A stretch of DNA of 64,000 nucleotides from contig RPFO01000131.1 in the NCBI GenBank assembly GCA_009746045.1, positions 1,902,671-1,966,670 of the forward strand, given 5' to 3'. Source of the DNA: Mesostigma viride (Eukaryota > Streptophyta > Mesostigmatophyceae > Mesostigmatales > Mesostigmataceae). The translations under genes were made by a program, and so were the position numbers. A model generated the notes under the pieces. It was not told the origin of the DNA. It saw nothing but the letters and a program-made list of their open reading frames with translations, and did not search any database. Below are positions 2,780 to 35,761 of this stretch, in pieces; the stretch's first letter is position 1; every line of letters starts with the position of its first letter.

Positions 2780-2841
<62 letters not shown>

Positions 2842-8860: not shown

Positions 8861-8885
8861 GGCCGGGCCCACTTCGAATGTTCCG
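8861..8885 (+). repeat. left terminal inverted repeat of the giant element
   Basis: 25 bp starting GGCCGGGCCCACTTCG and ending AATGTTCCG. It is an exact reverse complement of 35,737-35,761. A further shared motif, GTGTGACACTTTTC, lies inside at 8,904-8,917. Confidence 0.95.
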
Positions 8886-9155
8886 CGGTCCAAGCCAACT
8901 AGTGTGTGACACTTTTCCTTCAATTTTGAGGCAAAAATCTTGAATTTTGGCTTGCGAACGTATAAATTTCACGTAAATATTACAATTTGTGGGTATTTAT
9001 CTCATTGTAAGTCTCGTGTGACATAAAAACTTTACATTAGCGTGAAATTGCATTGTTTCATTGAAGAATATCATGGATACATTCGTCGCACTTGAGACGG
9101 AGTCGACTGAATTTACTAAAGACTCGTCCAACATAAAATAAAGTCTTCGAACCGG

Positions 9156-12100
9156 TCACTTCTTATTCTTGCTCCTTGCTTCTGCTTCCAATTTCTGCTG
9201 TTCTGTTTTGGACTTCTTCCTCTTTGGATCGATGGACATCGCAGGTGCCCACTTTGCCACATCATTCCAACTCTTTCCGTCCATCAGAGTCACCACCTTC
9301 TTCACATAGTCCAAAGGCATCCAGAACTTGCCCCTATGCAACTTTCCGCCCTCTGTCTCTTCTGGAAAAAACTTCATGCAAACGTCCCTCCATTTCCGAT
9401 CGTATCCACCTACCTGCCCGTACAACTTCACCTCCTGTAACTTGGTATACTTTTGCTTTTCCCTACTCGCATTGGCCCTTCTCATGGTGTTCTCGGCCCA
9501 CCCATCAATCCAGAAGCACTCCGGTGCTCCGTGTTTCTGTTCCCCGTCCATAAGTCTCATCCACAGCGTAGGCTTCTCATAAGGCTCTTGGCTCTGCGCA
9601 TTCGCTTCCACCCCTTCAGACTGAGCAGCAAGTTTAGCTGCAGGACCGAAGCCCACCGCAGCGTTCGCCCGCACCACATCATTACCTGCGCGTAACCAAT
9701 CGGCACATCAACGACGGACTAAAGTCAACGTAGATAGATTGCAAACGAATTAAAAAAAAAATTCAGGATACATGCCACGACCAAAACAGCGATTTCCTCA
9801 CCCTTTGTTATTCCTTTCGGAGCTCGAGTAGCAGCTGTCTTGGGTCGAGACGAGCCGGAAGACTTGGAGGGCGCGGCAGGCTTCTTCCTCCCCTCAGACG
9901 TCGCTCTGCGAGTTGACCCTCCTGCCCCTCCACCCCTTGCCCTTCCATCACCCCTTCGCCTCCCTCCATCTTCCTCCTCCTCGTCGTCATCCCCCTCCTC
10001 CTCCTCCTCCCCCTCCCCCTCCTCCTCCTCCTCCTCCTCCTCCTCCTCCTCCTCCTCCTCCTCCTCCTCCGCCTCCTCCTCCTCCTCCTCCTCCTCCTCC
10101 TCTCTCCCCTCCTCCCCCTCCTCCCCCTCCTCCCCTCCTCCCCCTCCTCCCCCTCGTCCCCTCCTCCCCCTCCTCCCCCTCCTCCCCCTCCTCCTCCTCC
10201 TCGGAGGAGGATGATGATGACTCGACTGGCTGCCTTCGAAGCTCTTTCTTGGGATACTTTAAAACGCGCGTAGGCGCGGAAGGAGCGCCCGGCCGGGCAG
10301 AAGCGCCAGGCTCAGCTTCATCTTCGTCGTCCGAGATGTGAACAACTGCCTTTCGGGCCTTTTTGGAAGGGTGTGACTCCGGCTGCGGCTGGACAGACGG
10401 CCGCTGCCCACCCTTCCCTTTGTCCCGCGTCTTCTGCGGTGACGACTTCTCTCCCCCCTTAGACGTCTTCTGCGGTGACGACTTCTCTCCCCCCTTAGAC
10501 GTCTTCTGCGGTGACGACTTCTCTCCCCCCGTAGACGTCGCTCTGCGAGTCGACCCTCCTTCCTTTCCACCCTGTCCCTCGCCTCCCTCGTCCCCATCCG
10601 AATCTCCTTCCGCGTCATCCTCAGCCTTCCTCTTCTTCGCCAATGACGTCCACGATACGTCAGGCATCTTCCCCATCCGAACCAGTAAGTCTTCGAAGCC
10701 ATCCAATGACTTCTTTCCGCCAAAAACGACCACGATGGGACGCAACTCCTCGAAAAACTGCGTCGCTAGCTCGATAAGCTTCCTGTGGTAACCGGAATTG
10801 CGTTCGACAGTTGTCTTTTTTGGAGGAACCATAAAGAGGTCATGGTCACCCCACCAGAAGTCCTTGAAGGACGTCCACTTGCGGCCGAACTCACCATCCA
10901 AATTCAGGATTCTACAGCACGGTAATGGCGTCAGGCCATCGTCTTGCCTCGCGAAAGTGGATGGGAAGCCCTCACCGTCGCCCACCGCCACCTCCGCCGC
11001 CACCCTCCTCACAAATGCCTTCTTCCTGTCAGGGCCGCCTTTAGGGAGACTATGAGAAGAATACCAGACGGTCATCTGATCCCAGGAAATGCTGCGCCAG
11101 TTATACTCAATCGGCTCAGCACTTTTCTCTTCCACCTTCTCCCCCCCTTTCCCTGCAACTTTCTCCTTCGCCTCAACCACCGCCTCCTTCTTCCCTTCCC
11201 CTCCTGCCATCTTTTTTTGATAGTGGAGATACAAGTCCTTGTCCAGAAGGCCCTGCGAACCCTTCATGCTGAAGTTCGGAGCGGTTTTGTCGAGGAGATC
11301 CACTAGATCGATGGTGCCAGCCATCAGATCCTTTCTCGGAATCCTTAGGTGATTGGCAAGACCTTCGGACTTTAAGAGGTAGGCGACATTGCGCGTGATG
11401 ATGACGGCCTTCTCCCAAAATGCAAGGAATCGATCGACGACGTCCTTGTTCCTTGGCATCCGGTTAAGTAGTCGTAAGCCGAACACCTCTTCAAATAAGC
11501 GAGAAGCCTTGTACTCCATATCAGCCCCCCCTTACATTCGCCATCCAAGTCGGGCTTTTCCTGAAACTTAATAAGGATGAATTGGCGAACGCACTCAAGT
11601 ACGTCCTTGGCCAACTCCACCAACTTTGACAGCTTTTCGGGCCCAACCTCCCCACTCATGATGCATTCACACACAGCGTCCATCATCGGAAACGACGCCA
11701 GGTTCCTTACAGACGTCCAGGACACCTTTTGCCCCTTCTTGGTGCCCTCGGCGTTAGCGAACCGGCATCTGAGAGTCATAGTCTCCTCAGAAGCTGGTGT
11801 GACTGAATTCTCATCATCCGGCCTGGCCTTTGTGAGGCGCAGGAAGGTGTTCGCCAGAACTCGATTGTAATTTGAAATTTGGGAAGGTTGGGCCTTGTTT
11901 TTTTTCCGCTCGCCTTCTTCCTCCCTCACCTCCCCCTTATCCTCCTTACTCCCCTCCAAACTCCCTTCCCTCCCGACTGATTGTTTGGTGGCCGGCAGGA
12001 TGTACGTCAGCAGGTTCGTGTAATGCCGTGTTGGTCCGTACGGCAACTCGGGTATGAAAGTACGCCGTATTGTACGGTACCGACGCTTTCGACCGCGTAC

Positions 12101-15100
12101 GCCGTACGATTTTCGCTGTTTTTCACTTTGGACTTAGCCGATTTCGGAGGTCGCGGAGGGCGGGGGGGCAGGTGTCACGCGAGATTGAGGCCCAGGAACC
12201 TGTCCGCGGTGCTGAGATAGCAGAAATTGCAGCGAGTGCATAGCTACTCCCTAGTTACTACGCGCGTGACAGTGCACCTTTTTCCTTTTTGACAGGATTT
12301 TTTATTGCGTGGGAGAAAAGCTGTAAGGGGACAGCCTGGCAGAATCATAAGCGTGCAGTTCTAGAAGGACGCAATTGAAGGACGCGCAAAATGGACGAGG
12401 AAAATGGACGATGAAAATGGAGGGTGGTGCGACGGTTCATGCATTGTGCATGCACCAGGCAATCACCTACTAAGATGCGACCATGGCGCTGCGTAGAGCC
12501 CCAAACGACAGAAAAGTAGAGGAGTATCAATACCTCCATGCATCTGATTGACGAGGTGGAAAAGACCGTTCATGGGGAAGAGGTGGTAGTCGGCCAGAGG
12601 TGGGCGTGCAAGCTGTGCGATTACAAGTTCGGCAGGCCTGGCAGCTTTAGCAAGGATCGCGCTGTCGGCCATCTCGGCCACATCCCCAACAAGGGAGCCG
12701 CGTTTTGCAAGGACTCCGGGAATGTAGAAGGCCTGATCGGGAGGCTTCAGGCGGCTGAGGCAGCCCCGTTGGAAAGGAGAGAGCTGAGGGCAGCGCTCGG
12801 TGCCCGCGTTGCCAAGGCCCTTCTGCCTGCCGCTGCCCCGGGTGCTGGCCCTTGTGGCTCTGGCAAGGCAGTGCAGAAGACGATTCCACAGTGCTTTTCC
12901 AGGCATATCCTTGGCAGTTGACAGCGTTATCTGGGCATGCCCAGATAACTGCAGTTTGCCATATACTTTTCTCAGGAATGCCCTGGCAGTTGACGGTGTG
13001 TTTTCTGGGCTACTTGCCACTTCGTATTTACTTTTTCGGGCATTTCCTTGGCAGTTTATTGTGTGGTTCATTCTGCATGGGTTGATTGCCATTTTATTTT
13101 TCGAATTTCAGGGATTCATGGCATGCACTTGTTGTCATTGTGCAGCAAAGCTGCCGACTGTAGTGCTATCACATCCACTGCATCAACTAGGCAGAGATCT
13201 GGGTGCATTATACCATATTCAATAATGCATTATATTGAGTTGATGGCATTCATGCAAATTTTGTAAAGGCTGATGCATTATAATAAAAGGGTATTATAAT
13301 AAAAGAGACCGGTGTTAAATGGTCAATAATTTGCATGACCACAATAAACACATGTACTTGAAGGATGTATTGCAATGTAAATCCAAGTGTGGCAGGTGGC
13401 AAGTCACTGCCACTATATGTTCATTAATGAATAGCATAGAATAATTATATAGTAGTAACATTTGTTGGATGCAGGGTCACACATCCTTGGAATACCCCGT
13501 ACTTTTCAGCATTCACCTCAAAAATACCCCGTACTTCTTAACTACAACTTGAAAAATACCCGTACTGCCGTACTGCGTATTTTTTCCCGTATTTTTTACC
13601 CCTCCTGAAAATACCCGTACTTTTGCAGTACGCGCGGGTTTTACCGAATACCCCGTACTGCCGTACAGACCAACACGGGTGTAATGGCCATCGGGAATAA
13701 AATGCCCTTTGCCCTGCTTCACGACGCCGTGCAAGTACAGCCTGTTGTAATTCCAAACATCCAGAAGCGCCTGCCCAAGCGTCCGATCCGCTACCGCCTG
13801 ATCTTCGGCATTGGCGCCCTTGGAGATTTCGAATAGGCGATCCAGCTTCTTCTTCCCACCCTCCTGTCACGGACAGAGGAACGAAAAATTGACACACAAG
13901 AACAATTCAAGGGTCGACTTGCAGCGTGACGTTATGAACGCACGGGAGCGCGAAAAATGGTCTTCAGCGCCGAAATCGGTAAGTTAGGGTCACTCTGCGA
14001 AACCACCCCAGAAATATGTCGGGATGAGAGTTTGACTGCCAATGTCGTTTCTGTGTGCGACTTCCCGCATTTATAATGCATGATAAAGGAAGACTTTTGA
14101 CATGGTCACTCCACAGTGCGACCCTTACTCGACATAACACGACGAAGTGGTGGAACTGCAGCGTCACCATTGCCATAGATAGAACTACCACTTACAGATA
14201 TTTCCGGGAACTTTTTACACTCGTCCCAATTTGGAAGAAGGTCGGCCCCCCGAAGCAGAATGACGTTCGTTCCCCCGTACCCAGTATGGAATTGTTCCAT
14301 GAGGGATGAGAAAAGTTTAGCCGCCGCGGCACTGTCCTTCGCGTTCTCAGACGCTGCCCCCCCTTCACACATTAGTTTCTTAACATGTGTCACACCGGGC
14401 GTCCATTCCCCCTCCAATTGCTTGAAAGACTTTAAACCCTTGAAATAGTGGTTTCCGTCGACCACCGCATATCGAAGAACGAGATATTCGCCATCAGGAT
14501 GTTCCTCGTGAAATCTTGGGTCGAATGCCTTTAAGGAGGCCTGGCTTATTAGGCTGAAGACCTCCCTTGGTTGAAAATCAAAGGGCAGAACGTCGTCTTG
14601 TTCCCCGACTCGTGCATAGGTCCGGAACTCAACACCTCTCTTGAGGAAAGAAGCGGTGGACTTGGTTCCAAGATACTTCTCAATCTCCTTGTCGGACAAG
14701 GGGCGAAAGTAACGCGAGCCCACGAACTCCGCGTCAGTCCTAGCGCCATGGCATTTTTTCAGCCAATCCCGGTAAGGGCCAGAGGACGTGATGTGTTTGG
14801 CGAAGAGGCTTGGCTTGGTTTCCGCAAGCGCTTGAAAGGCGAACTGCCACACAGGGATGCACACCTTAAAATGCAAACTGTTTGTCTTTGCATTCAGCAA
14901 GATGCGCCCGTTCTCCCTGAACACCTCATCGCTTAGCAACCGCTGCCTCATGTTGTCAGGCAAAATCAGCCCGTTGACGGTGTGAATGCGCATGCTATTG
15001 CAACCGGTATCGATGAAGTCACTCGGTCGAATCCAACGGGATTCCCGCACAGCATTCGCGTCCCGAATGGCTTTGTCCCTGATCTCCTTCTCGGAGTCCA

Positions 15101-18100
15101 CGGTCGTTGCCATCTTCCACTCTTTGATGATCGGCTCCTTGTCCACCTTTCCACTACTCGTCAGGATCCCCTCCTTGAAGAGCTTTGAAAGTGCTTTCAG
15201 AAGCTCAAGAAAAGGGGAGAAGGTAGGCCACTTTAATATATCCGACGCCGGCGCCTTGCCCCTGGCTTCGACGTAGTTAAGCATCTCCTTGACGAGTGCA
15301 AAAACGGCATCATTGCCGGCCAACCTTCCGTCACCGTCTCCTTCCCCCTCGGCACCCTGAACGAAGGCATTGACGAACATGAGACAAGAAAGCAATAAAT
15401 AGTTTAACGTATGCATATAGTCCGCGAGCGTAGGAAAATCTCAGAGTAGGGTGCAAAGAACACAGAAGGTAAAAAGGGTCACTCCACGGAGCTACCCCTC
15501 TGAATCTAAATCACCAAAAACGCACCGCTTCCTTTTCTCCCGCCTTCTTCCCCTTCTTTCCTTTTCCGCCTTTCTCCCCCTCGCCACCCTGGAGGAAGAC
15601 ATTGACGAAGATGAGACAGGAAAACAATAAATAGTTTAACGTTTGCAAATAGTCGGCGTGCAGACAAAAAATACCGAATAGGGTGCAAAGCACGGAGAAG
15701 GTAAAAAGGTTCACTCCACAGAGCTACCCCTCTAAATCTAAATTCCGCAAAAAACGCACCTCTTCCTTTTCTCCCGCCTTCTTCCCCTTCTTTCCCTTCC
15801 CGCCCTTCTCCCCCCGGCCGCGTCATCCTCCATTTCCACCCCCTTATCCTTCCCCTTCTCCTTTTTATCCGCATCCCTCTTCTTTTTGGACGCTTTTGCC
15901 TGACCCTCAAGCAGCTTCGCCCGTTCACGATCCCTTCTCTTGAGATCCCACTTCATGAACTTGATGACCTTGTCCACCTTCGCCTCCGTGTACGCCTTTG
16001 GTTTCCACTTGAACTTTTCGGTGCCCTTGGACTTGACTTGGTTGACAAAATCATAGGCCAGGTCACCGTTGAAGGTGTCAGATTGCATTGCGAAATCGGC
16101 CGCCGCCTCAACGCGTAGTTGGGTGAGATACTTGCGAAACTCCCCGGCACCCATCGTAACATCCTTAGGGGGATTGCCTAGGATGAGTTCGCCAATATCA
16201 CAGATAGTCTGCACCTTATTCCTTCTCGCAATAAGCTTTAGGTAAGCTGCTTGGAGTGTCGTCGTCGCCATTTTTTTAGCCTGCTGGAAGGTATACCAAC
16301 AACACACAACATACACATGAAGCGAAATGTATTAAGAAGAATAATCTGGACTCTGGCATCCTAGCTCTGCAGCGCGACCTTCAGCGTTATAAACTTAAAA
16401 AACATTGTACAAACCTTTGCCTTCCCCTTCCCCTTCGGAGTTGGCTCGGGCTCATTTTCTTCCTCCTCCTCCTCCTCCTCGTGCTCCTCCTCCTCTTCCT
16501 CCTCGTCCACCTCCTGCTCCTTCTCCTCCTCTTCCTCCTCGTCCACCTCCTGCATGAAAAAAAAAAAATAATTCAGACGATGACATAAAAAAAACGAGCA
16601 TTAATTTTGTTTTAACGTAGCTCTGCGAAACGACCCCAACCCTAAGCTTTAACAGTAAAATGAAACAAATTTCCTACCTCTACGTTCTCCGTCCCCATCC
16701 CTTCGACCTCTTCGAAAGGTTGATCGTCATCCTGCAAGACGAAACGTGCGTTCAGGTAAATATACAAAGTCAGTCAAAACAGGAACTATTTCTTGAATAT
16801 CCTATCTTTACAAATCGACCCCGAACCTTTAGCGGCATTTGCTTACCTCCGGTTTCCACGCTGAAGGACTTTGTCCCTCAAAACGTGGAATGTCACCCTC
16901 CTGGCGGGAAGGAGAGAAAGAAATGCGTTGATCGTTAGTAACAATTTTCAACAAAAGAAATACACAACACAAATCTAAACGGACTGAATAAAAATGTACA
17001 CAAATGTCAATAATTACCTCAATGTCAAATCTCCACTCCCGCAACACTTGTCCGATCGGCCACATCTCAGATGGAGTTGTGTGGCTCAGTTCGTTTTCGA
17101 AAAACGTCCGAAGAAAAAACAAGTGAGATAGCATGTCCTGACTCCATGATTTCTCGTTTATGTTCGCCGTCACTAACGACAGGCAGTCGTCGATCCCCTT
17201 GTACTCAAGCCATGCGACAACCTCCTTTCGTGGGGGCTCATACTGTCCGGCCATGTCGAACTCCCCACTCTGACGAAAACGCAGGATCTCATCCTCGCAC
17301 AACTGAAGAAACAATTCAACAGCTCGACTCGGAAGAATAGGGTCTGGGTTCACCCTAAACTGCGCCATCCACACTGAATACGACGAAAGGAAGTGCGATC
17401 TAACCCCATCCAAATCTTCAATGACATTTGTGCCAGCCTGAACAACTCGGGAGATACCGAGTGGTCCATGGCGACCAGAAAGTCGCCGAAGACATCCCAG
17501 TCGAACTGCGCAGCCTTGAACCCTTTCTTCAAGAGCAGATTGACATCGATTTCCGTCAGCGGGGAGGTGTCCCAATCCTCACCTGTCTTCCCCTGCTCTA
17601 GGACCTTGTACATTTCCCACCTGCAGACAGATATGATGATGTCAAAATACTCGTGTGACAATGGGTGCTGTCTCGTGTCCTTGCAGTACTGTTTGGTCGC
17701 ACAAGACAGCTTGATCCAGACGAGCAGGCTTCGAGGAACATAAGCTGTAACATCCGCTGCGTCGGGTATCGTTGACCCGCACTCGGTAACAAGCAACTCA
17801 AAGGTGTCGAAAAGAGATGCAATGTCTTTCCCCTTCAACCTTTTGCCTCTAAGGCTCCGCCCCATCGCTATGAACAAAAGATCACGAAGTGTTGGATCAC
17901 TCCAAGGGTTCATCTTCTCATCAGACCCGGATTCCATCCTCTCATGCCGGACACCGTCATCGATCTCAACTTCGATCTCCTTCGACACAAAGGTGCTCAA
18001 GAACGACTTGGCGTCATCGTTCAGATGTTTTTCGTGAGTCGTCAACCATGACTTCCAAGTTTCCAAGCCCCTCAACTGGATCGGCTGCACACAGGTCCAC

Positions 18101-20132
18101 AAAACGAAAAAAAAAGCATAATCGGAAAAAAAGTTTAGGGTCACTCTGCGAAGTGACCCTTCATTAAAAAATCTTAAACAGAACGAAGGACTAACTGACA
18201 TGCACTATTAAGCGGCGAAAAAATTCTTAGCTCACCCGCAATTTCTCCTCCCCACTCCCAACCTCGGCGTTCCCCTGAGACTCTGTCTCATCTCCCCCTT
18301 TCTTCCTCTGGATGCAGCAAGACAGAGGAAAGCATACTCGTTGAAAAAGTTTAGGGTCACTCTGCGAAATGACCCTCCATAAATTAATCACACATGCGAA
18401 GGAAACGGCAACTCAGAAATGAAGGACAAATGAACAAAGAACAAAGGCGAAAAACACAGGATTACTTATCGCTCACCTCCGTTGTTGTCCCGCTCTTCTT
18501 GGGATCCTCTGACTTCTTTTCGTCTGCCCCCCGCTTCCTCTGAAATCAAAACAACAGGGAAAAGCATACTTGTTGGTTCAGGTTAGGGTCACTCTGCGAA
18601 ATGACCCATTCATGGTCAACGAGCTTAGCAGAGATAAGGAATAACGAAACCGTTAAAAAAAACACGCACACTAATGGGGGTAAAAACTGTTTCTCACCTG
18701 AGACGGCTCCGTACCCTCCTTCTCCGAGACCCCCGCGGTCTTCCCATCCACCTCCGTCGACTTTTCTGCAGCCTGCGCCTTCCTGCGCTCCTCCTCAAGT
18801 TTGGCTTGGTATTTCAGGCGTGCCGCCACACCCGCCTCCATCATCCTCTTCCCCTCCTCCTGCACCTTCCTCTTCGCCTTTGCCTCCTCGTCCTTCTTTT
18901 TCCTTTCCTCATTCGCCTTTCTCTCCTTTTCGTCCCGCTCCCACGACGCCCTCCTCTTCCTGCGCTCCGCCTCCTCCATCTCCGCAGCTTCCATTTCTGC
19001 CTGCTTCGCCTCTCGCTCTGCCCTTTCCTTCTTCACCCATTCCCTCTGCTCCCTTTCCAGGAGCTCCTGGGCGGCCTTCCGTTCCTTGTCCTTTTTCTCC
19101 AGATTCACCAGATCTTCGGCGTGCTGCGTTGCCTGATCCAGATAAGAAGTCAGAAGTGCCATGCGGTCATTCCTTCTCTTTCTTTCCTCCTCCGGAAGAT
19201 CCTCCAGTGGCCTTGGGTCTGCCTTGTCCCTGTCCTCCATGCTGATCAGGAGGTCAATGTTCTTCTGCAGATCACGCAGGAACCGCTCATGGTCATCCTC
19301 CTTCTCCTCCCATTCCGCTCTTGCTTTCTTTCTTGCCTGTGGGGAGCGGCTCCTCGGAGGTGAGTTTCGACTTGGGTGGCGACCGGCGCTTGGGCGGAGA
19401 CTTCCGACCTGGAGATTTTGCAGGCGACTTGGGCGGTGATCGGGACTTGGAGGTCGCCCCTTCTTTGGAGGGGAGCTTTGGGGAGACGCGGGCTGCGAGC
19501 TGGGCTGTGAGGTCGACGCCTCGGGTGGGACCTTGAGGAGACCTGGGCGACGTGCTGACCTTCGAGGTCGACGCCTCGTGGTGGGACCTTAGAGGTGACT
19601 TGGGCAGCGGGCTGCCCTGCTCAGACGCCTCGTGGTGGGCCCTTGGAGCAGACTTGGGCGGCGAGCTGGGCTTCGAGGTAACCACCTCGACGGGGGCGGA
19701 CCTCGGCGAGTTTGAGGTCGACGCCCCGTGGACGGGGGACTCCTTGTTGATGGCGGGCCGCTGGGGAGACTGTGGAGACACAACGGAGCTGGACCCAGCC
19801 CCGGCAGCCTGTGCCTCAGGTGCGGGCCGCTGGGGAGATTTGGAGGCCGACGCCTCCACGGAGCTTGGCCCAGCCCCGGCAGCAAGCATTGTTGACAGAA
19901 GAGGAAACTCCTCTACGCCCTTGGGCGGAGAGGCGGGTGGCGTAATAAACTTGGGAGACTCGCTCGTCGACTTGAGCTTGTCGACATAGGTGGCCCTCTC
20001 CACCTCTTTTCCCTTCTTTGGCGAAGAGGCCCTCTCCTGCTCCTCCTTTTCCTTCTGAAGCAAGGAGGCCCTCTCCTGCTCCTCCTTTTCCTTCTGAAGC
20101 TGAACTTCCCTCTCCTTCTCCTTTTCTTCCTT
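9156..20132 (-). CDS. large multi-exon gene of the giant element, function unknown
   Basis: Minus strand, last 12 exons resolved from splice sites: 20132-18698, 18539-18477, 18307-18236, 18084-17018, 16900-16847, 16731-16678, 16549-16415, 16280-15760, 15588-15526, 15356-14196, 13863-9802 (split by a hAT at 12,018-13,686) and 9685-9156. All have GT donors and AG acceptors; the stop is at 9,156. The first exon begins at an acceptor, so further 5' exons exist but were not found. Exon 1 encodes Lys/Glu-rich and SPPKSP-type repeats (like histone-tail DNA-binding motifs), then a long coiled coil. Exons 4 and 10 encode folded-looking domains with Cys and Trp; exon 11 has repeated GGEKSSPQKTSK units and a poly-Glu tract; the last exon ends KNKK. 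No catalytic motif was recognised. Frame shifts at about 19,335, 17,435, 15,800 and 11,525 suggest damage or sequence errors. A structural, nuclear or DNA-binding accessory protein is only a guess. Confidence 0.7.
9966..10203. repeat. (CTC)n trinucleotide tract in exon 11
   Basis: Imperfect CTC/CCC repeat. On the minus strand it reads mainly GAG (poly-Glu, preceded by VESSSSSSEEEE). The proper frame resumes downstream as GGSTRRATSEGRKKPA, so the repeat length or phase is probably wrong by one base somewhere. Confidence 0.85.
12018..12025. repeat. 8-bp target duplication of the hAT element (left)
   Basis: GTGTAATG, repeated at 13,679-13,686. Eight base pairs is the hallmark length for hAT transposons. 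Confidence 0.9.
12026..13678 (+). mobile_element. non-autonomous hAT transposon inside an exon of the giant element's gene
   Basis: 1,653 bp between 8-bp direct repeats. The TIRs match: left CCGTGTTGGTCCGTACGGCA, right (reversed) CCGTGTTGGTCTGTACGGCA, continuing imperfectly to about 30 bp. The right subterminal region holds several copies of ACCCCGTACTT, as expected for subterminal transposase-binding sites. Removing it with one duplication joins exon codons GHFIPDGHYT and NLLTYILPATK in frame. It carries a BED-finger fragment but no catalytic domain, so it would need an hAT transposase from elsewhere. Confidence 0.9.
12538..12921 (+). pseudogene. BED-type zinc-finger N-terminus of an hAT transposase, truncated
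   Basis: 127-residue frame from ATG 12538. Residues about 24-60 show a BED-like finger: WACKLCDYKFG (CxxC), then SKDRAVGHLGHIPNKG and AAFCKD. hAT transposases use such fingers to bind DNA. The rest of an hAT protein (RNase H-like DDE core, dimerisation region) is absent; after about residue 80 the reading is Ala-rich and ends LGS. It is best read as the remnant left by internal deletion of an autonomous copy. Confidence 0.7.
13679..13686. repeat. 8-bp target duplication of the hAT element (right)
   Basis: GTGTAATG, identical to 12,018-12,025. Confidence 0.9.
15360..15800. repeat. tandem duplication of an intron plus mini-exon
   Basis: About 240 bp is repeated. The segment starting TTGACGAACATGAGACAAGA (about 15,370) recurs from about 15,608. 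Both copies hold a hairpin (GGGTCACTCCACGGAGC... and GGTTCACTCCACAGAGC...) and a coding stretch reading GKKGKKAGEKE. Exon 9 (63 bp, phase 0) looks like a copy of the 3' end of exon 8. Confidence 0.8.
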
Positions 20133-20197
20133 CTGCGGCAAATAAGGAAAAACAAATAGACCAATGTCGGATGAAGAAAGTGTAAATTCGCATCAGC

Positions 20198-21143
20198 GTG
20201 AGGGGTGGCGCTGCAGCGCTACCCTAAGAAGAAACAAGGATGAAATCCCATTCAGGTTTGGGGATTAAAAAAAATCGAAGATGTACCATATGTCAGGGAA
20301 GGGGTTATTCTGTAGCGAGACCCTTGCGCAAAATAAGACATAAGAACCATGTTAAGTAAGGGTGACTCTGCAGCGCGACCCTACCAACAAAATATAGCAT
20401 AATAATATTTCATGGAAGGGTGACTCGGCAGCGCGACCCTACAACCAAAATGTGATTGAATAACGTATCTATCTGGAAAGGTGACTCTGCAGCGCTACCC
20501 TACAAACAAAATGTTATTGAATAACGTATCTGGAAAGGGTGACTCGGCAGCGCGACCCTACAACCAAAATGTGATTGAATAACGTATCATGGAAAGGTGA
20601 CTCTGCAGCGCGACCCTACAACCAAAATGTGATTGAATAACGTATCTTGGAAAGGTGACTCTGCAGCGCGACCCTACAAACAAAATGTTATTGAATAACG
20701 TATCTGGAAAGGGTGACTCGGCAGCGCGACCCTACAACCAAAATGTGATTGAATAACGTATCTATCTGGAAAGGTGACTCTGCAGCGCTACCCTACAAAC
20801 AAAATGTTATTGAATAACGTATCTGGAAAGGGTGACTCGGCAGCGCGACCCTACAACCAAAATGTGATTGAATAACGTATCATGGAAAGGTGACTCTGCA
20901 GCGCGACCCTACAACCAAAATGTGATTGAATAACGTATCTTGGAAAGGTGACTCTGCAGCGCAACCCTACAAACAAAATGTTATTGAATAACGTATCTTG
21001 GAAAGGTGACTCTGCAGCGCGACCCTACAAACAAAATGTTATTGAATAACGTATCTTGGAAAGGTGACTCTGCAGCGCGACCCTACAAACAAAGACTGCG
21101 ACATTGCGCAAGGGTAGGGGTCACTCTGCGGAGCGACCCTACC
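20198..21143. repeat. tandem array of hairpin-containing units, about 58-60 bp
   Basis: From about 20,440 to 21,090 the unit is roughly AATGTTATTGAATAACGTAT, then C(TT)GGAAAGGTGAC and TCTGCAGCGCGACCC. About 11 copies occur, alternating CTGCAG and CGGCAG centres. Related single hairpins flank it at about 20,200, 20,300, 20,360 and 21,120. It lies in the region upstream of the first resolved exon of the large gene, probably in an intron. Confidence 0.9.
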
Positions 21144-21177
21144 CAAAAACAATACTGACCACTCCCCAAAAAAATCA

Positions 21178-23775: not shown

Positions 23776-24396
23776 ACATATCGCTGGCTGAGGACCAACA
23801 CGAAAAAAGAAGCCATATCGCTGGCTGAGGACCAACACGAAAAAAGAAAACATATTGCTGGCTGAGCACCAACACGAAAAAATAAAACATATCGCTGGCT
23901 GAGGACCAACACGAAAAAAGAAGCCATATCGCTGGCTGAGGACCAACACGAAAAAAGAAAACATATCGCTGGCTGACGACCAACACGAAAAAAGAAAACA
24001 TATCGCTGGCTGAGGACCAACACGAAAAAAGAAAACATTTAGCTGGCTTAGGACCAACACGAAAAAAGAAAACATTTAGCTGGCAGAGGACCAATACGAA
24101 AAAATACTCTGGTCGCTCGCTGAGGACCAACCCTTAAAAAGAAGCCGTGTCGCTGGCTGAGGACCAACACGAAAAAAGAAAACATGTTGCTGGCTGAGGA
24201 CCAACCCTACAAAAGAAGGCATATCGCTGGCTGAGGACCAACACGAAAAAAGAAGCCATGTCGCTGGCTGAGGACCAACCCTTAAAAAGAAGGCATATCG
24301 CTGGCCGAGAACCAACCAGAAAAAAGAAGTCATGTCGCTGGCTGAGGACCAACACGAAAAAACAAGCCATATCGCTGGCTGAGGACTACAAAAGGG
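23776..24396. repeat. 37-bp minisatellite, about 17 copies
   Basis: The unit is about ATATCGCTGGCTGAGGACCA followed by ACACGAAAAAAGAAGCC. Later copies have CCCTTAAAAAG or CCCTACAAAAG variants. It abuts the 30-bp array directly. Confidence 0.95.
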
Positions 24397-26350: not shown

Positions 26351-28293
26351 TCCCAACGCAAAATTCCGGCCACGAGGTAGCCATGGCTGTCGGAGCTCAT
26401 AACTTTCACGTTTGAGCACCGAATTTAGCCGTGAATATCACTATCGCTTCGTCTTTCTAAGACGCACATGCTGATATAATTTTCCGAATCTAAAACGCAA
26501 TATATGGCGCACAAACGCGCCTCGACGCAACGCAGCCTGGCGGCTGCGCTCGGCAATGAAAATTCTGCAGCTCAGGCTGCAGCTTCGCCTTCAGGTCCGG
26601 CAGGCGGCGATGACACTAGTCGTGCACTGGTGGTCGTCCAGCAACCCCCCGGGCTTAACGCCTCGCCATCTGCATCGCCTGACCCCAAGCGCACCCGCCC
26701 AGCCGACGACACAGGAGGGTCTTCACGCCCAGAACCGAGCTTTCGGCCCCGGCCTTTCAAGGTCGCAGATTACGACTGGGCCACCATTTCTCCGACCGAT
26801 GCTCTGCGCTGCATCTTCTTCGGGGATTACGCTTCGCTTTACGACCTGTGCCTCCATTTCCACTCCATCAATCGCCTCCTCGCCCCGGACGGCAGCCGCT
26901 GGGCCAACATCTACGGGCTGTCCGGCTGCGTCCGCCCCCATCTCCAGCACGCCATCCTCAACTCCCTTCTCCAGCGCTCTGACGGCGAGATCTGGGCTCC
27001 ACCCCTTTCCGTCCCCACCCTCCGCTCCATCCTCACGGAAGCCTTTCAGCAGCACGTGACCCCCCTTGCTGCCGACATAGCAGCAATCGGCGGCACGCTG
27101 ACTGCTGAACTTCCTCACATTTCCACCGCCGCCGCCTCCACCTCCACGGCCATTTCCGCCTCCACTGCCGACATCAAAGCCCAGCTCCTCGACCTCGACC
27201 AACGCCTTCAAGCCACCGCCAACGCCCTTGAGAGCTTGCATGACACCGCCGGCCTCACCGCCCAGGCGGTGAAGGACATCGCCGCCCAGCCGGCGCCTGC
27301 TGGCTCGGCCGGCGATGCTCCCTCCACCTGGGCGGACTTGCTTAAGCAGCACACCACCTCCACCACCTCCACCATCTCGGCACAACTCAAGCAACAAGCC
27401 CTCGACCTTCGCGAGGAAGCCGACATCGCCCGGCGCAGCCACAATGTCATCGTCAAGCACTTCGACCAGCAGGCAGGTGAGACCTCCACGAGCCTTCTTG
27501 AGGCATTTAAGCGCGCCATTCTTGCCCCCATGTTACTCACTGGTGAGCTGGACATGTCGGCTGTCCGCCTCCCCCGCGCGCGGGGAAGGCTGGCCCGGCC
27601 CCCGTGCTCCTCACCTTTAAGTACATGGCGGACAAGCTGGCGTTCCTTAAATGCCGCAAGAAGCTCTCGGAGACTCGCTTCACGCTGGACGACGACTTGA
27701 CCCTGGCCCAGCAACAACGGCGACGCGAGCTATGGCCGGCCTACCTTCAGCTCCGGCAGAGCGCAAGGGGGAAGCCGGTATACTGGAGGGGGGCGGTCAT
27801 CCACGTTGACCACAAGCCCTGGCAGCCCCCTCCTGCCACCTCAGACTAGGAATATATATACCAGTAGTGTAGATTAGTAAGGCTTAGCCTAGCATGTGGC
27901 CCACGCGCATGTGCGCCCATAATGGCCCCCATGGATGATGCCTTCAACATTTAGCCATGCTTTGTCTATAATGGGACCCCCATGGATGTTGCATTAAGAA
28001 CTTAGCCATGCTATGCCATGCAGAGAGATGCTCTCTGTCGAGAAGCCATGCCCTAGCCCTTGCATAGCCATGATGATCTTCCTCCCCCGTGCCAGGATCC
28101 CCTTAGCTGGGTTGAACCTGAGACAGCATGGTGGTGCCAGTGCCCTTGCGGCACCTAGAGCAAGTGTTGCTTACATTCCCACCCTTGCATGAAGTAGCCT
28201 AGGATGTATTTAAAGCCATATGCCCCTTCTCAGGGATATGTGCTACATTGACTCCCAACGGAGTGATGTTGATAATTAATTAATTAATTAATT
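26351..28293 (+). mobile_element. ORF1-only LINE derivative nested in the giant element
   Basis: Flanked by the 12-bp duplication TTATGGACATCA. It has a 5' UTR that resembles the one before the LINE ORF1 at 62,853 (ATGGCTGTCGGAG here, ATGGCTGACGGCGGAG there; GACGCAC and AAACGCA also align). An ORF1 follows, then a 3' UTR ending GACTCCCAACGGAG plus (AATT)n, like the 3' end at 7,291. There is no ORF2. Complete ends with a missing ORF2 point to an internally deleted, non-autonomous element, comparable in layout to mammalian HAL1. Confidence 0.85.
26504..27849 (+). CDS. LINE ORF1 protein (RNA-binding), one frame shift
   Basis: From ATG 26504 (MAHKRASTQRSLAAAL). The N-terminus is Ala/Pro/Ser-rich and the middle is helical, with Ala/Thr-rich coiled-coil-like stretches (about residues 180-310). 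Next comes NVIVKHFDQQAGETSTSLL, and after a shift near 27,583 (GCGCGGGGAAGG) the C-terminal module PVLLTFKYMADKLAF, DDDLTLAQQQRRRELWPAYL and GKPVYWRGAVIHVD. This order (coiled coil, RRM-like, then an 'LT..Q...R..L' C-terminal module) is that of L1-type ORF1 nucleic-acid chaperones. The ORF1 at 62,853 shares PGETSTSL and PPVLLTF. The break means this copy makes no full ORF1 unless the base is a sequencing error. Stop at 27,849. Confidence 0.8.
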
Positions 28294-28850: not shown

Positions 28851-28908
28851 TGCATATGTTAATTGTCCGTGAATTTCTTTTTGTTACTGCAGCACGGGAA
28901 CGGGTGTT

Positions 28909-30869
28909 TCATGTCCCACGTAGCTCCCACAAAAACCAGCATCTTCATTAAAACAATAAGTGGAAGCATACATGTGACACTAATTGACATGCCCGGAGGC
29001 ACGCCGTTCAAGGCCCTTCATGAAGTACGTTGCCCTAGAGGCAACCAAGACACGGGTGGGTGGGTGGGGAGCAAAGAAAGAGGCCGACAAAACCAGCCAG
29101 AGCGGCTTTTAGTCGCAAAACCTCCCTTATCCCTAGCTAACTGACGTCATTAAACCCTTATGTTTAGTGGATGCTAGTAAGACGCTAACCGTACAGACCG
29201 GGGTAGAATATCCCGAATCTGCACGGCTAGTATTAAATAATGCGTAGGTTGTTCTTTTCAGGGGCACTGCACCTCACGCCCCGTTCCGCCCGGGTATAAT
29301 CAACCCAAGCGCGGAACGCACATTTTATTTAATTCATTTTTCAACCATGCACTATATTGCATCTACTAATCACAAAAGCTCTAGCCAAACAGCTACGAGT
29401 AAACACTACGACCTATAAGCCGCTCATCCAGCGGCCTCTTGTTCCCGCATTCACGTATAGAAGAAACTCCGTTCAAAGAACCCCGATTCATGTCCCACGT
29501 AGCTCCCACAAAAACCAGCATCTTCATTAAAACAATAAGTGGAAGCATACATGTGACACTAATTGACATGCCCGGAGGCACGCCGTTCAAGGCCCTTCAT
29601 GAAGTACGTTGCCCAATCACCCCCGCCCTGGCTTTCCCTTGAAGCCGCACTCCACCTTGCTCGTTGTCACAAGTGACCGCCCTGCCGCAAAACGGGAGCC
29701 CCCCACATCGGGAGGCGTGTGCCCGGCGGCTGTGGATGCATGGCCAGGCCCAAAAAGGCCCAGCGCATTTGCACTGCGATTGCGCACGGCCAGCCTATCA
29801 TGACCCCTCTCGGGGCCCCGAGTCGGTACCGCTATGGCCGTCTCCCCATAGACCCGGGGTGCTTCGAGAAAAAACGTGGACCTAGCCCAGGCCCCGCCAG
29901 CCCGGATGCCCGAGGCCACAGCCCCAGGCACCTGGCTGAACGAGAGTCCGTTCAGCCAAGACCGCATTCCCCCCGAGGTTTCTATGCGTGGGGAAAAAAA
30001 TTCTAGCTTAGGCGCTTTTCCCATCGCCGTCCCCAGCCCCAACCACCCCCCCTCGGCGGAAGGCAATTGCAAAGTTTGCTGGCCAGCAGCAATTTCCGAA
30101 GAAAAAGCCGCAGGCCGCGGACCGAGACACGGGTCGCCAGTGCCAGCCATCCGGCTCCAACCCGGGGTGCAAGCATCCCCAGGTACGGAGCACCAGCTCG
30201 CGCACTGGGCCGACCAAGCGACAGTTGAGCACCTGTCACGGCATCCGGCCCACCAAAGACCCCAAGCTGGGGAAAAGGTGCGGACCGGAGGTAATCATTT
30301 TCTTTTCTTTTAGTTAACCGAGCGAGGAACTACGCCTGGCCGGTTAACAACTGGAAGTCTCACCACTGGCCAAGTGGCCAGTGCAACCAGTGCTTTTGGG
30401 ATTTTGCTCCGCAGCACCCATAGCTGCGGCTGCCGCCGCAACGACAACGAGCAAAGAAAGAGGCCGACAAAACCAGCCAGAGCGGCTTTTAGTCGCAAAA
30501 CCTCCCTTATCCCTAGCTAACTGACGTCATTAAACCCTTATGTTTAGTGGATGCTAGTAAGACGCTAACCGTACAGACCGGGGGTAGAATATCCCGAATC
30601 TGCACGGCTAGTATTAAATAATGCGTAGGTTGTTCTTTTCAGGGGCACTGCACCTCACGCCCCGTTCCGCCCGGGTATAATCAACCCAAGCGCGGAACGC
30701 ACATTTTATTTAATTCATTTTTCAACCATGCACTATATTGCATCTACTAATCACAAAAGCTCTAGCCAAACAGCTACGAGTAAACACTACGACCTATAAG
30801 CCGCTCATCCAGCGGCCTCTTGTTCCCGCATTCACGTATAGAAGAAACTCCGTTCAAAGAACCCCGATT
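28909..30869. repeat. interleaved direct duplications A and B upstream of the transposase gene
   Basis: Block A (about 127 bp, ATGTCCCACGTAGCTCCC...) occurs at 28,909-29,035 and 29,488-29,612. Block B (about 420 bp, GAGCAAAGAAAGAGGCCGAC...) occurs at 29,068-29,487 and 30,449-30,869. The copies are nearly identical; one G differs in a GGGG run. The order is A, B, A, spacer, B, gene. Block B includes the sequence just before the transposase coding region, so the promoter or 5' UTR is duplicated. Recent duplication and assembly artefact are both possible. Confidence 0.9.
29740..30291 (+). CDS. possible upstream exon(s), Cys-containing, unrecognised
   Basis: Two open stretches look coding. From ATG 29740 the frame reads MARPKKAQRICTAIAHGQPI ... 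PIDPGCFEKKRG ... FYAWGKKF and stops at 30,006. In another frame, 30,012-30,291 reads RRKAIAKFAGQQQFPKKKPQ ... SGSNPGCKHPQV ... CHGIRPTKDPKLGKRCGPE and ends at a donor-like GAG|GTAATC. The region is far more GC-rich than its surroundings. They may be 5' exons of the transposase gene or a separate gene; linkage was not proven. No family recognised. Confidence 0.3.
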
Positions 30870-33800
30870 CTTTCGCCAACCTCCTCCTCCTTGCGTGGCG
30901 GCTTTGCTAATCGACTCAATGCCCACAACTTGAGCATCGGGACACCGACGCCCCTTGCAGCGGATCTGAAAAACAGCTCGAAAAGAAGTTTCGGGAATGA
31001 GAACCGCAGCACCTCGCCCGCCGTCAGGAAGCCATCGAAAAGGCCTGGCCAGTACGCCGAGAAGAAGTCTGTTGTGGGGACTCATCTTGCTGATGAGGCG
31101 TACAACGTAGTTCATCACATGAGGAATGAATCTACCAGGCGGGCCTCTTTTGAGGAGATTGTTGATGGCTTCAATAAGAGGGCTGACGAGCTCAAGGCGG
31201 AGCATTTTGACATTCCGGTGGCCAAGCTTTTGATGAGCAGCGGCTTGCACAACTGTCGAGGTCTTGGGTGGCTCGGCTGATCGCCCTTTTTGACGACCTG
31301 TCGAAATCCGACCATGACAGAGACGTCAAGATCATTTTGGTGTCAACTCTTTTTTGTGGGGACGACATCGAGAAGGAGTTTTCGGCGGCAGAGTTGGAGA
31401 GAATGACGGGTGTCCCCGCGAAGACCATTCTCAAAGTTCGGGCGATCAGAAGCAACAGAAGATGGAGTTCCTGACGCGTGCGCTGGCGCGAAAGAAGAGG
31501 AAGTTGCCCCAATTTGTAATCGAGTCGATCGCGCAGGCTTGGACTGATGAGGAGAACTCGCGCGCTTCGCCCCAAGAGAGGGATACCATAAAGACGCACG
31601 AACGAGTTGGCAATCGTGCGATTTTGGTTGGTGTCCAAGGGGCCTACTTCTACCTCACCTCGAAGGAGGACATATATCTCAAGTTTTTAGCGGAGCACAC
31701 GTACTGGGACAAGAAAAGTCCGCAGTATGAGAAGGATGTCGGCATCCATGTCGGATATACGACTTTCTGCAAGTACGCCCCCAAAACCGTCAAGGGGAAG
31801 TGGAAGGAGAGAAACGTGTGCGCCTGTGAGACGCATACGGTCATGCAGTCGAAGGTAGCGGCATGGACTAGGTACTGCAAGGCGAAGCACGGCAAGAACT
31901 GCAAGTGCGGCGACGAGTGTGAGGGATGTTTAAGGGCGAGATTGCCTGACGGCACGTGCGGGATGTTCGAAAGCCTGCACACGACCGAATGGGTGAAGCA
32001 CTTCCATTGCCGTGTGGCGGAGGCGGATGGGGGTAGTGAGCTGGGGGGTGGGGCAAACTCGGCGAGAAACGAAGAGGAGGAGGGGACAATAATGTGACGG
32101 AAGATGAATGGCAGGGGCAAGACCTTGACGATCTTGAAATAAATGAGAGGATCGTGGAGGATGAGGAAGGGGTGCCAAGGGTAGGGGACCCATCCATGGA
32201 GGAGGGGTCTGTCTTTCGCATTCTGAAGAGGGCATGTATGGAGAACTCGTGTCCCGAGTCCCGGTGTGGCATCAAAGACTGGGTGTTGTGTGACCGGGAC
32301 AAGAATTCAACAGAACTACTAAATTGGTTCAGATACGTGAAGAAGGAGGTAGTGGTTTCCCGACCGGCAGGGGAGGTAAGCGTGTTTGGATTTTGTGACG
32401 CAATTATTTCGCAGCGTCATTCTGCAGCGCGATGTTAATTAAAGGCTTTTCTGATACTTTATGAATATGTTACTTGCAAATTTACTTCATCCCTTGGTTA
32501 AAACAGGACGCGACCGATCGGCGGGTCCCGGAGAAGGTCAAGCGGCCCGTACAGGAAACGATGAGGTCAACGCCCGCGCAGCTGAGGCTGGCGATTATCG
32601 AGAGTTGGGAGGACTTTACCAACCACTGCTTTACGTCATGGTGGCAGTCGGCAACGATCAAGGACCGGGAGAGGAACATGACTGAGGGGGATGTGCTCGT
32701 GCATGGAGATTGGGCCGAGAATTACGAGAACAACAACTACGTCCAACTGCAGTCGCAGTACTTTCACAAGACGAGCTTTGTCCTCATGCCCATGATCGTG
32801 CGATATTTGCACAATGGTGCGATGGCAAAGCGAACGTTCTTTTTTCTCGGGGAAGCCAAGATGAAGCGGGGAGAGCGGGCGCTCGTCTACGCGCTGAGGA
32901 CAATCATGGAAACCCTGCGCGGACTTGGTGTGGGGGTGAAGAGGATGTTCATGTGCTCTGACAACTGCTCATCCCAGTTCAAGTCCAAGTACGTGGTTAA
33001 CGCCGTCTTCCGCCTCCTCATGCAGGATCCCGACTTGGAATCCTTCGAGTACCACTACTTGGGTGAGCAGCACGGGAAGGGGGAGGTGGATGGTCAGGGA
33101 GCGAAGTTCAAGTGCATTGTGAGGAACATGCAATGCATTCCTGAGAACCAGGGCATCGTTACAGGGCGCCAGATCGTCAAGTACATGCGGGACAGCTGGG
33201 AAGGAGGCAAAACCACGAGCAGGGAGTCGGCCCGCGCTCGGGCAGAGGGCGTCCACCGTCATTTCTTTCATTTTCCTGAGGTGCGAAACTCAATTTTTCT
33301 TGAACTTGATTGAGGTATCTCTGCAGAGTGACCTTTTGCCCATTTGCATTTTATTATTTGATAATGCTAAAAGAACTGGTATGAATTAGCGTCTTATATA
33401 GTGAAAAATGCATGCAAAGCACTTTCAAAGGGGTATCTCTGCAGAGTGACCCTTCATGTGTACTTGATCTATTGACACATACCAACTTTCCGTTTCTGAC
33501 ATTCTCCCTCATTGCAGGACCTCGACTCCGGCGCCCGTATGATACCGACGCGTGTCGAGGCCATCAAGCAAGCGCACTGGTGGCGCCTGGACAAGTCTGA
33601 CCCGGGGCTCCTGATGATGAGGCGTTTTTCGTGCTACTGCCCAGCCTGCCTAGCTAACAGGTGGGAGGAGTGCCGGACCGAGTGGACACATATCGAGGAA
33701 TTTAACGATGAGGGCCAAACGATGAAAACTTTCCGCCTGATGCCGCCAACGCAGCCCATACCTCCGGTTCGCCAGCTGACGCGGGCGGAACTGCTGAAGG

Positions 33801-34261
33801 ATCAAAGGGATGCCATTGGCAGGCAGATGCGCATGTATGATTACATCGCAGTTCCGTCAGACAGAGAGGACGTGAACCACAATTCCGCCCACCCTTTTTG
33901 GGTGATGCAGGTGGTGAGGGAGGCCTCAGTGCTGGAGAAGGAGGAGGTTAGGTGGGTTGAGGGACAAAACGGACGGCAGAAGGAGATTTTCTTGCCCGGC
34001 CACGCCGTTCTGGCGGTTCGGCTGTGGAAGCGAGATATGCATGACCCCCTGCATTTTACTCTGGATTTGGCTGATTGGCCGGAGTCCCGCCCAGCCGACC
34101 TGGTCGATTGCTATCTGTGCATCTCCGCTGCTCTTCCGCTCCAGTGCATGGTCCTTGGCAACCAAAGGCAAGCCTACGTTGATATGAGCAAGGAGCTTGA
34201 CGCGTGGCTAACCGCTCTTGTACGCAACCAGCAAGCCCCGGAGGGGCTGCCACCGGCTTAA
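30738..34261 (+). CDS. transposase-like gene of the giant element (RNase H-fold DDE type), frameshifted
   Basis: Likely the enzyme that moves the element. The true start is unresolved; 30,738 is the first codon of the open frame. Coding passes through shifts at about 31,228 (TTTT), 31,455 and 32,085, then introns 32,374-32,507 (GAG|GTAAGC ... AACAG) and 33,280-33,516 (GAG|GTGCGA ... TGCAG), to stop 34,259-34,261. Visible parts in order: a helical N-terminal region; a Cys/His-rich block (NVCACETHTV, GKNCKCGDECEGCLRA, HFHC); then three acidic motifs, VLVHGDWAENYENNNY, MFMCSDNCSSQFKSKY and LGEQHGKGEVDGQGAKFK. The spacing and the GDxAENY, SDxxxxQxK and HGKGxxDGxG signatures resemble, from memory, a transposase-like family found in many animal genomes; that link is unverified. 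The exon from 33,517 reads on to GLPPA. Both introns carry hairpin repeats. Confidence 0.65.
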
Positions 34262-34850
34262 ACTTTCGGGGACGCTCCGCAGCGCCACCCCTACGGATCT
34301 TTAAGCCTGGGCTTTATTCGCCTACGGTTGGGACAGTGTTTATTCGTGTTTATATATTTTTGGAGAACTGTTTTTTCATATGTTACATAGATGACAAGTG
34401 GCTGGGAACATTGTTAGCCTCGGTAGTGACAAATTTTAGTATATTTCCGTGTCGAAATGGCGAGTATTTTATTTAACTTGTACAATAATTTTTCGAATTA
34501 CAAATTTATAATTTGGTTTGACCTAAAAATCATGTCGTCACTCAAATATGTAGTTGCTGGTAGGACTTTCCGTCCGTCTGCAAATTGGTTCGTACTAATT
34601 TCGAATGTCACAACAATGTTACTGTACTAAGGCCTCTTTGGTAGATGTCTTAAAACACAAATTCGCTCCGGAAGTGCCAAAGTACCTTGCTTGTAACCGG
34701 ACTAGTTACGAATTGTGATTGGAAGGTTGTCCCCTACAACCACAAGGAATAGAGGGGACGCTCCGCAGCGCCACCCATACGACAGTCCGGACCGGGCTTT
34801 GCTGAAATAATTTTCTCACTCGCAACTTAGCCATCAAACTCACTTTTACG

Positions 34851-35323
34851 ATGGAGCGCGCCGATGTTTTTGGTTCGCAGCATACATATGTGCATGTCGA
34901 TAAAAAGGAGCATGCGGCCAACATGTATGTTGAAATCGACTCCCCCCCCACGACTTCCCACGCTCCCTGCGGGGACCGTTTGGAGGTTGGGGTTCAGGTG
35001 TCATTGCGTTCGGAAACGGGATGATCGACCTGATGCCCCCAGATTCAGATTTGGCGCCTGCCCCCCGTGTTCCGGGTAAGGCCAGGGTGGTGCAATGCCT
35101 CCAGAAGGAGGGCACGGAAATTTCGCCCAATGTCTCGGCTGTGCGCCTCCGGGCTGAGGCCCAGCATGAGTTCTTGAATGCGGCGGAAATAGGTGGGGCC
35201 GTATGGGCCCCCAAACAATTTTCCAACGAGCCTCCAAATTTCGTGGGGGACTTGTACAAGGGAGCGTACAAGTTTCGTGACATTGAGATCGATGGATGGG
35301 GGTCATTTCTCCAGGAAAAGTGA
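34851..35323 (+). CDS. small gene of the giant element, unknown function
   Basis: ATG 34851 gives MERADVFGSQHTYVHVDKKE ... YVEIDSPPTTSHAPCG. A frame change follows between about 34,940 and 34,975 (just after a CCCCCCCC run), then FGGWGSGVIAFGNGMIDLMP ... GAYKFRDIEIDGWGSFLQEK to stop at 35,323, about 157 residues in all. It lies 590 bp after the transposase-like gene in the same direction and 410 bp from the right TIR. Hairpin repeats at 34,265 and 34,756 sit between the two genes. No family was recognised. It could be an accessory transposition or DNA-binding protein. Confidence 0.5.
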
Positions 35324-35605
35324 ATGCCGGTCCCATTTGGCAAATATAATCGATGATTAATTCCATGCAACATTTTGCGTTGGTCAAATGTGTAAATTTT
35401 CATTATTAATCGATTCAATAAAATTATGGGGGTGGGTATACCCACCATTTGATGGTTGAAAGTACTACTAGCTTCGTCGATTAACGCTTCTCAACATGGT
35501 CCTCTAGTCGACTAGGAATGTACCAATCCATCAGGGTATCGAGAAACTTGTTATGCCGAAACACTCCGGTCGAAAATTTTGTGCCACCTGCAGGCAATCA
35601 AAAAG

Positions 35606-35730
35606 CGCACGCGGACCGACGGGAAAGAGTAGTTAGTTACGAAATTAAATAAACGACAAAAAGTGTCACACGCGGCCCGGCGGGAAAGAGTAGTTTGTTA
35701 CGAAGTTAAAAAAACGACGAAAAGTGTCAC
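35606..35730. repeat. subterminal direct repeat, two copies of about 62 bp
   Basis: CACGCGG(A/C)CCG(A/G)CGGGAAAG...GACGAAAAGTGTCA occurs twice head to tail just inside the right TIR. The shared core AAAGTGTCACAC also matches the motif at 8,904-8,917 near the left end. Candidate transposase-binding sites. Confidence 0.85.
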
Positions 35731-35736
35731 ACTTTT

Positions 35737-35761
35737 CGGAACATTCGAAGTGGGCCCGGCC
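35737..35761 (-). repeat. right terminal inverted repeat of the giant element
   Basis: Exact reverse complement of 8,861-8,885, followed by the ACCC duplication at 35,762-35,765. Confidence 0.95.

Follow-up and report, generated by a model that had tools for sequence, protein, structure and literature searches.

Giant DNA transposons are already known in algae, including a 21.5-kb Sola-1 element, and the cited literature describes them from algae of the brown, red, and chlorophyte lineages as well as from fungi and animals. In Ectocarpus, KDZ, EnSpm, and Sola-1 DNA transposons reach maximum lengths of 15.2 to 30.3 kb, and nested insertions and broken transposase genes are described in these giant elements (PMC12477816). 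The 21.5-kb element, Sola1-1_Ec32, carries an accessory gene with ParB and methyltransferase domains on the strand opposite the transposase, and the same paper cites an active 31.7-kb KDZ element of Chlamydomonas (PMC12477816). Giant EnSpm/CACTA elements are described from red and brown algae (PMC12477816, PMC6431247, PMC12730594). Here, we analyzed a window of 64,000 bp (the whole stretch of DNA) from Mesostigma viride contig RPFO01000131.1, in which an element bounded by terminal inverted repeats (TIRs) occupies positions 8861-35761. The host is a single-celled green alga, among the earliest-branching streptophytes and on the line to land plants. The element is a real TIR DNA transposon and one of many near-identical copies in the genome. 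We are confident that it represents a young, high-copy family of giant DNA transposons of the cut-and-paste type.

The groups with which it has to be compared differ in their printed marks. According to PMC10741241, Sola elements have a transposase with three catalytic aspartates (DDD), a 4-bp target duplication, TIRs of 11-1124 bp, and a size sometimes above 15 kb, and Ginger elements have TG..CA ends, TIRs of 40-270 bp, duplications of 4-6 bp, and an integrase-like fold. AWWT target duplications are given for Fanzor-bearing Sola2 elements in PMC3627910. PMC12730594 gives 8-bp duplications for Zisupton, and 3-bp duplications together with CAC..GTG ends for EnSpm.

The inverted-repeat scan of the window placed 25-bp TIRs at 8861-8885 and 35737-35761, which are perfect inverted repeats of each other and give the element GGCC..GGCC termini. 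ACCC lies directly outside both of them, at 8857-8860 on the left and at 35762-35765 on the right, just as an earlier sequence-only reading of this DNA had claimed. The flanks belong to a long interspersed nuclear element (LINE). The left part matched the reverse transcriptase profile PF00078 (E 3.5e-23, from profile position 19), and the right part gave an endonuclease-like match to PF03372 (E 0.0022), which is under Pfam's cut-off. When the flanks were joined with a single ACCC, the continuous reading frame NKGSPADPGNYRGVCIQSAPLKLLMRLI was obtained, and the two LINE halves rejoin in frame as that reading had proposed. The features of the insertion site are as follows.

7479-8860, minus strand: downstream half of the LINE, with the reverse transcriptase (open reading frames, Pfam)
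8857-8860, no strand: left copy of the target-site duplication ACCC (window letters; a single ACCC in the empty site)
8861-8885, plus strand: left 25-bp TIR (boundary common to other copies; exact genome places)
35737-35761, minus strand: right 25-bp TIR (inverted-repeat scan; exact genome places)
35762-35765, no strand: right copy of the target-site duplication ACCC (window letters; empty site)
35762-37485, minus strand: upstream half of the LINE, with the endonuclease-like match and the reverse transcriptase start (open reading frames, joined frame, Pfam)

The genome was searched in 439,911,974 bases on 2243 contigs; the repeat counts are scored candidates and therefore lower bounds. The joined LINE flanks (400 bp, one ACCC) were matched over their full length at 40 of the 40 scored places, all displayed at 100% identity, and 13 of them reached the top score of 718 bits. 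Since the joined sequence is matched end to end at every scored place, the LINE halves are contiguous in other LINE copies; the empty sites proposed for search do exist, and the objection that the halves are never contiguous fails. The left boundary was also common to other copies. A 301-base query spanning the left end was scored at 40 places including the window copy, and at 38 of the 39 other places the match started at query position 55-62, the first base of the element being position 62. The remaining place, L002, matches the flanking LINE as well as the element. The 25-mer TIR is exact in L002-L008.

The exact TIR 25-mer was found at 130 genome places (60 forward, 70 reverse), and its reversed control at none. 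Among the first 100 of these places listed, there were 27 convergent neighbour pairs, 23 of which span 19.6-37.1 kb, three 51.7-84.5 kb, and one 135.7 kb. Target duplications were scored in 21 end pairs, namely the window copy and 20 fetched ones. All 21 consist of one left-type and one right-type end, and 20 have a perfect 4-bp duplication; the TIR pairs 10-40 kb apart and the further copies for which a search had been suggested are thus present. The insertion-site preference over 20 sites was weak: C stands immediately before the duplication in 12 and G precedes that base in 11, the first base of the duplication is A or T in 17, and G follows directly in 10. Six further full copies, 20,926 to 34,215 bp long, run collinear with that in the window, which answers the possible objection that no other copies exist, and some of them carry insertions of their own elsewhere. 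Two copies, C526 and C113, have an identical 20-bp flank, and some insertions may be present in both versions in the assembly.

The window copy differs from these six copies by four blocks, together 6436 bp, as listed below.

12026-13678, no strand: nested insertion with its own inverted ends and the 8-bp duplication gtgtaatg (missing in 6 of 6 other copies)
25373-26260, no strand: nested insertion (missing in 6 of 6)
26351-28288, no strand: nested insertion with a 406-amino-acid frame at 26480-27700 (missing in 6 of 6)
28911-30867, no strand: nested insertion with internal direct repeats, which breaks the second exon of the transposase gene (missing in 6 of 6)

Because all six other full copies are without them, the four blocks are later insertions into the window copy. 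Without them, the window copy measures 20,465 bp, and the element core is about 20.5-21.9 kb. The size of 26.9 kb given in the sequence-only reading therefore holds for the window copy and not for the family. The 406-amino-acid frame lies in a nested block and thus drops from the gene list of the element. In the core, two multi-exon genes point away from each other on either side of a tandem-repeat centre; the multi-exon structure formerly ascribed to a single gene stands, but there are two main genes, and the transposase gene of the window copy is broken. The first block is itself a 1653-bp nested element, whose inverted ends are CCGTGTTGGTC.

The rightward gene likely encodes a DDD transposase of about 1020 amino acids, as judged from the modelled core and the alignment of its relatives. 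Its exons in the window are the following.

30868-32375, plus strand: long exon, with three frame changes in the window copy (open in copies C1413, C1580, and C1106)
32507-33280, plus strand: catalytic exon with three conserved D (model, alignment, protein matches in the genome)
33518-34261, plus strand: last exon (spliced comparison of copies)

In the window copy, this gene is disrupted by the insertion at 28911-30867 and by the three frame changes; among the other copies, the long exon is broken in C113, C1690, and C1724. The spliced protein of C1413 has 1026 amino acids from an in-frame ATG. P0001, a predicted Mesostigma viride protein of 1018 amino acids, matched the element protein at 100% identity along residues 250-850, the part used as query, and it differs from the C1413 protein at the start and in one residue. 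It is catalogued as an ordinary predicted protein of the alga, which means that the gene sets of this genome include transposon genes. Searches of 5.77 billion sequences returned four proteins, three from Mesostigma and one from a metagenome; the latter was the only relative outside Mesostigma in searches that need shared 5-residue words and miss distant relatives. D67, D151, and D194 are invariant in P0001, P0002, and P0004. The last of these (Mv25878) represents yet another family, the third, which shares the catalytic motifs but is more remote (50% in the core, nine member sequences).

The predicted core has the RNase H-like order with the three D at the expected places, in a weak model (predicted local distance difference test score, pLDDT, 55.5; predicted template modelling score, pTM, 0.53). 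The PDB fold-match lists for this model were topped by RNase H, Argonaute PIWI, and retroviral integrase, and in the viral fold library the matches were again RNase H proteins, with none of a narrower class. No eukaryotic cut-and-paste transposase stood among the 50 rows of the VIA fold list, a result that rules out none. The PDB sequence search with the transposase alignment gave one chance-level row (E 0.59). The profile search against transposase domains, proposed with the first description, turned out negative in Pfam, in which only DUF7869 gave a weak match, spanning the second and third D (E 0.026, under the cut-off).

The leftward gene spans 9156-20192 on the minus strand. Its open frames in copy C1106 are 809, 448, 396, 163, and 519 amino acids long, with a further one of 183 near the end, and we infer that they are exons of one gene. 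In the window, they correspond to three parts.

9156-12025, minus strand: downstream part (809- and 183-amino-acid open frames in copy C1106; open reading frames of the window)
14106-15440, minus strand: open frame of 444 amino acids (kept in the second family at 56-57%)
15738-20192, minus strand: upstream open frames of 197, 249, 284, 305, and 299 amino acids in the window copy (open reading frames)

Pieces of this gene compared with Pfam, PHROGs, NCBIfam, and PDB sequences gave weak chance-level rows only (RecQ_Zn_bind, E 0.013; cytochrome c', E 0.18). The structure model of the stretch 10641-11531 had a pLDDT of 39 and no usable fold. A ParB-methyltransferase identity, prompted by the accessory protein of the Ectocarpus Sola-1 element and by a conserved stretch, VVDGNHYFKGL, with some likeness to ParB, was set aside as no more than an idea, since no such domain match was detectable in the pieces searched.

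Both genes recur in a second family. Among the 147 core-exon matches in the genome, 82 stand at 68%. The terminus of this family, GGGTGGTCCCACGCGGAATGGGG, was read from three copies and agrees by eye with the end of the first family at 14 of the first 20 bases; the GGGTGGTCCCACGCGGAATGGGG 23-mer occurs exactly at 363 genome places, and its reversed control at none. A perfect 4-bp duplication was present in 8 of 10 fetched pairs. The left-gene exon had 98 genome matches, 74 at 88-100% and 24 at 56-57%, and some of the latter lie inside end pairs of the second family, e.g., C446:1424809-1426011 within 1408900-1430467. The pairing of the two genes is seen in each of the six full copies analysed and again in the second family. 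Between the families, the nonsynonymous and synonymous distances (dN and dS) were 0.217 and 0.86 for the core exon (256 codons) and 0.407 and 2.23 for the left-gene exon (426 codons), and these codon comparisons indicate that both genes have diverged under purifying selection. Both have thus been kept by selection, and this is the main evidence that the leftward gene may be a transposition partner rather than captured cargo.

A short form recurs in the second family, with end pairs on C36, C80, C280, C335 (10.3 kb), C429 (10.4 kb), and C69 (10.7 kb), and it is probably internally deleted. The short pair on C80 has a 4-bp duplication. In addition, three insertions lie in one short stretch of the LINE reverse transcriptase: the window copy, L002 (C1426), which sits in the same LINE sequence 4-5 bp away, and the second-family copy L085 (C310), whose left flank reads NYRGVC by eye. 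These elements may favour this target, or, the LINE being very abundant, the clustering may be due to chance.

The ends and the interior of the element carry further repeated motifs, and three tandem arrays separate the two genes.

8904-8917, plus strand: subterminal motif GTGTGACACTTTTC, left end (shared-end comparison)
20361-21093, no strand: 58-bp tandem array, which with its edges (20302-21118) contains 15 of the 26 palindromes described below
21176-24386, no strand: tandem arrays with units of 30 and 37 bp, located between the genes (tandem-repeat scan)
35608-35732, no strand: 61-bp tandem duplication with the subterminal motif twice, at 35659-35671 (one base shorter) and 35719-35732 (tandem-repeat scan)

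The motif GTGTGACACTTTTC therefore stands inward of the TIR at both ends: the left end has a single copy, the right end one full copy and another shorter by one base. The 22-bp palindrome GGGTCACTCTGCAGAGTGACCC, counted with up to five mismatches, occurred 26 times in the window, always within the element; the flanks, 37,099 bp in all, contain none. In the other full copies, between 11 and 23 of these palindromes were counted in each of the six. In the window, they span 9898-33452 (e.g., 13987, 18354, 18586, 28828, and 33431), and the transposase-gene introns contain several of them. Tandem arrays also occur outside the element, at 2434-3192 (about 126 units of 6 bp), 39945-40449 (126 units of GGGT), and 49286-51831 (48 units of 53 bp).

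The copies are nearly identical. Substitutions between copies amounted to 0.00-0.31% in the right part, 30868-35761 (15 comparisons of six copies, C113 left out), 0.29-2.25% in the left part, 8861-12025 (15 comparisons of six copies, C1690 left out), and 0.47-1.92% in the region 13679-18600 (21 comparisons of seven copies). For the catalytic exon, 58 of the 147 scored matches were displayed at 100% protein identity over 256-258 residues, and seven others were partial or had 94-99% identity. The seven compared copies differ by 0 to 2.3%, so the element was active very recently. The transposase part is several-fold more uniform than the left parts, as if it had spread or been exchanged more recently.

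We propose that the DDD protein of the rightward gene would bind the TIR and the subterminal motif, excise the element at the TIRs, and insert it into a target cut with a stagger of 4 bp, GC-WNNN-G sites being weakly preferred. More speculatively, the leftward-gene protein might assist as a partner, and either this protein or the transposase might recognize the 22-bp palindromes. As the window copy is without an intact transposase, its movement, if it is still mobile, would rely on the enzyme of intact copies.

Several observations count against this picture. The window copy and three of the six other copies have a broken transposase gene, the model of the catalytic core is weak, the VIA fold-match list of the core also contains two designed proteins, and none of the Pfam transposase models matched above the cut-off. 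One of the 21 pairs, that on C1 (L009/L010), lacks the 4-bp duplication, as do the second-family pairs on C100 and C310 (2 of 10), and one of the eight duplications of the second family sits in an AGC repeat and is little informative. More than half of the palindromes (15 of 26) lie in or beside a single array, the 58-bp one. The dS of the left-gene exon is near saturation.

Concerning the affiliation of the family, we give about an even chance to a divergent member of Sola, a giant resembling Sola-1, in which case the family would be new, the superfamily known, and the mechanism the same. The 4-bp duplication and the 25-bp TIR agree with the Sola marks in PMC10741241, and a DDD transposase is likely from the model. 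The Ectocarpus Sola1-1 element has the same layout (PMC12477816): it is 21.5 kb long, its accessory gene and its transposase lie on opposite strands, and it resembles the window element in size and nested insertions as well. The comparison with Sola is, however, one of printed marks. Furthermore, the Sola2 target AWWT (PMC3627910) fits only 1 of the 20 duplications, and the leftward gene, in which neither a ParB nor a methyltransferase domain was detected, differs in this from the Ectocarpus accessory gene.

Alternatively, the element may stand for a superfamily of its own, made up of D-D-D transposons that require a second protein; we hold this explanation to be somewhat less probable than a Sola membership. 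It is favoured by the yield of just four proteins from 5.77 billion sequences, with three of the four coming from Mesostigma, by the lack of a Pfam match above the cut-off, and by the conservation of both genes in two families. On the other hand, searches that depend on shared 5-residue words miss distant relatives, the weak DUF7869 match, which covers the second and third D, suggests a link to a broader family already known, and the hallmarks tested agree with Sola. In its full form, which we put forward with equal reserve, it would be a giant two-component superfamily comprising a D-D-D transposase, a divergently transcribed partner under purifying selection, and element-wide 22-bp palindromes read by one of the proteins. 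If this were true, the large size would belong to the transposition machine rather than being baggage. The two families with the same two genes offer a direct way to ask if a cut-and-paste element of such size depends on a second protein.

Large segments bounded by inverted repeats can also arise by a composite route, in this case two short TIR elements flanking host DNA and moved once, but such an origin is ruled out for practical purposes by the six other full copies, collinear end to end, and by the pairing of a left-type with a right-type end in 21 of 21 cases. A viral origin, Polinton-like or otherwise, for which the size and the RNase H-like core (as in a Polinton integrase) would speak, and an assembly artefact were likewise rejected as highly improbable, since no polymerase, capsid, packaging ATPase, or protease match to Pfam was found in the ten open-reading-frame pieces scanned, none of 65 pattern-matching stretches in 2.9 million viral contigs was confirmed as a relative, and many copies have separate flanks, with the empty site at 40 places.

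The preferred interpretation, a young family of giant cut-and-paste type transposons, was finally compared with the described groups. No account of this element in Mesostigma was found in the literature searched, which included passages of the two Mesostigma genome papers. The proposal of a giant transposon was right as regards a large, multi-copy TIR element in a split LINE with 4-bp duplications, but a new type is not established, as giant KDZ, EnSpm, and Sola-1 elements are already published. KDZ elements (Kyakuja, Dileera, and Zisupton) of algae and fungi (PMC12477816, PMC12730594) are likewise large TIR elements with accessory genes and complex transposases of about 1000 amino acids or more, and they reach 30.3 kb in Ectocarpus; they differ in the 8-bp duplication of Zisupton as against 4 bp, and no Pfam match of any kind above the cut-off was obtained for the window element. 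EnSpm/CACTA elements are also large TIR elements with extra genes, whereas their CAC..GTG ends and 3-bp duplications contrast with GGCC..GGCC and 4 bp. Ginger shares duplications of 4-6 bp and an integrase-like fold, but has TG..CA ends and TIRs of 40-270 bp, compared with GGCC.. and 25 bp here. In the features that can be tested, the window element works like a Sola element, and it may be a member of the Sola superfamily.

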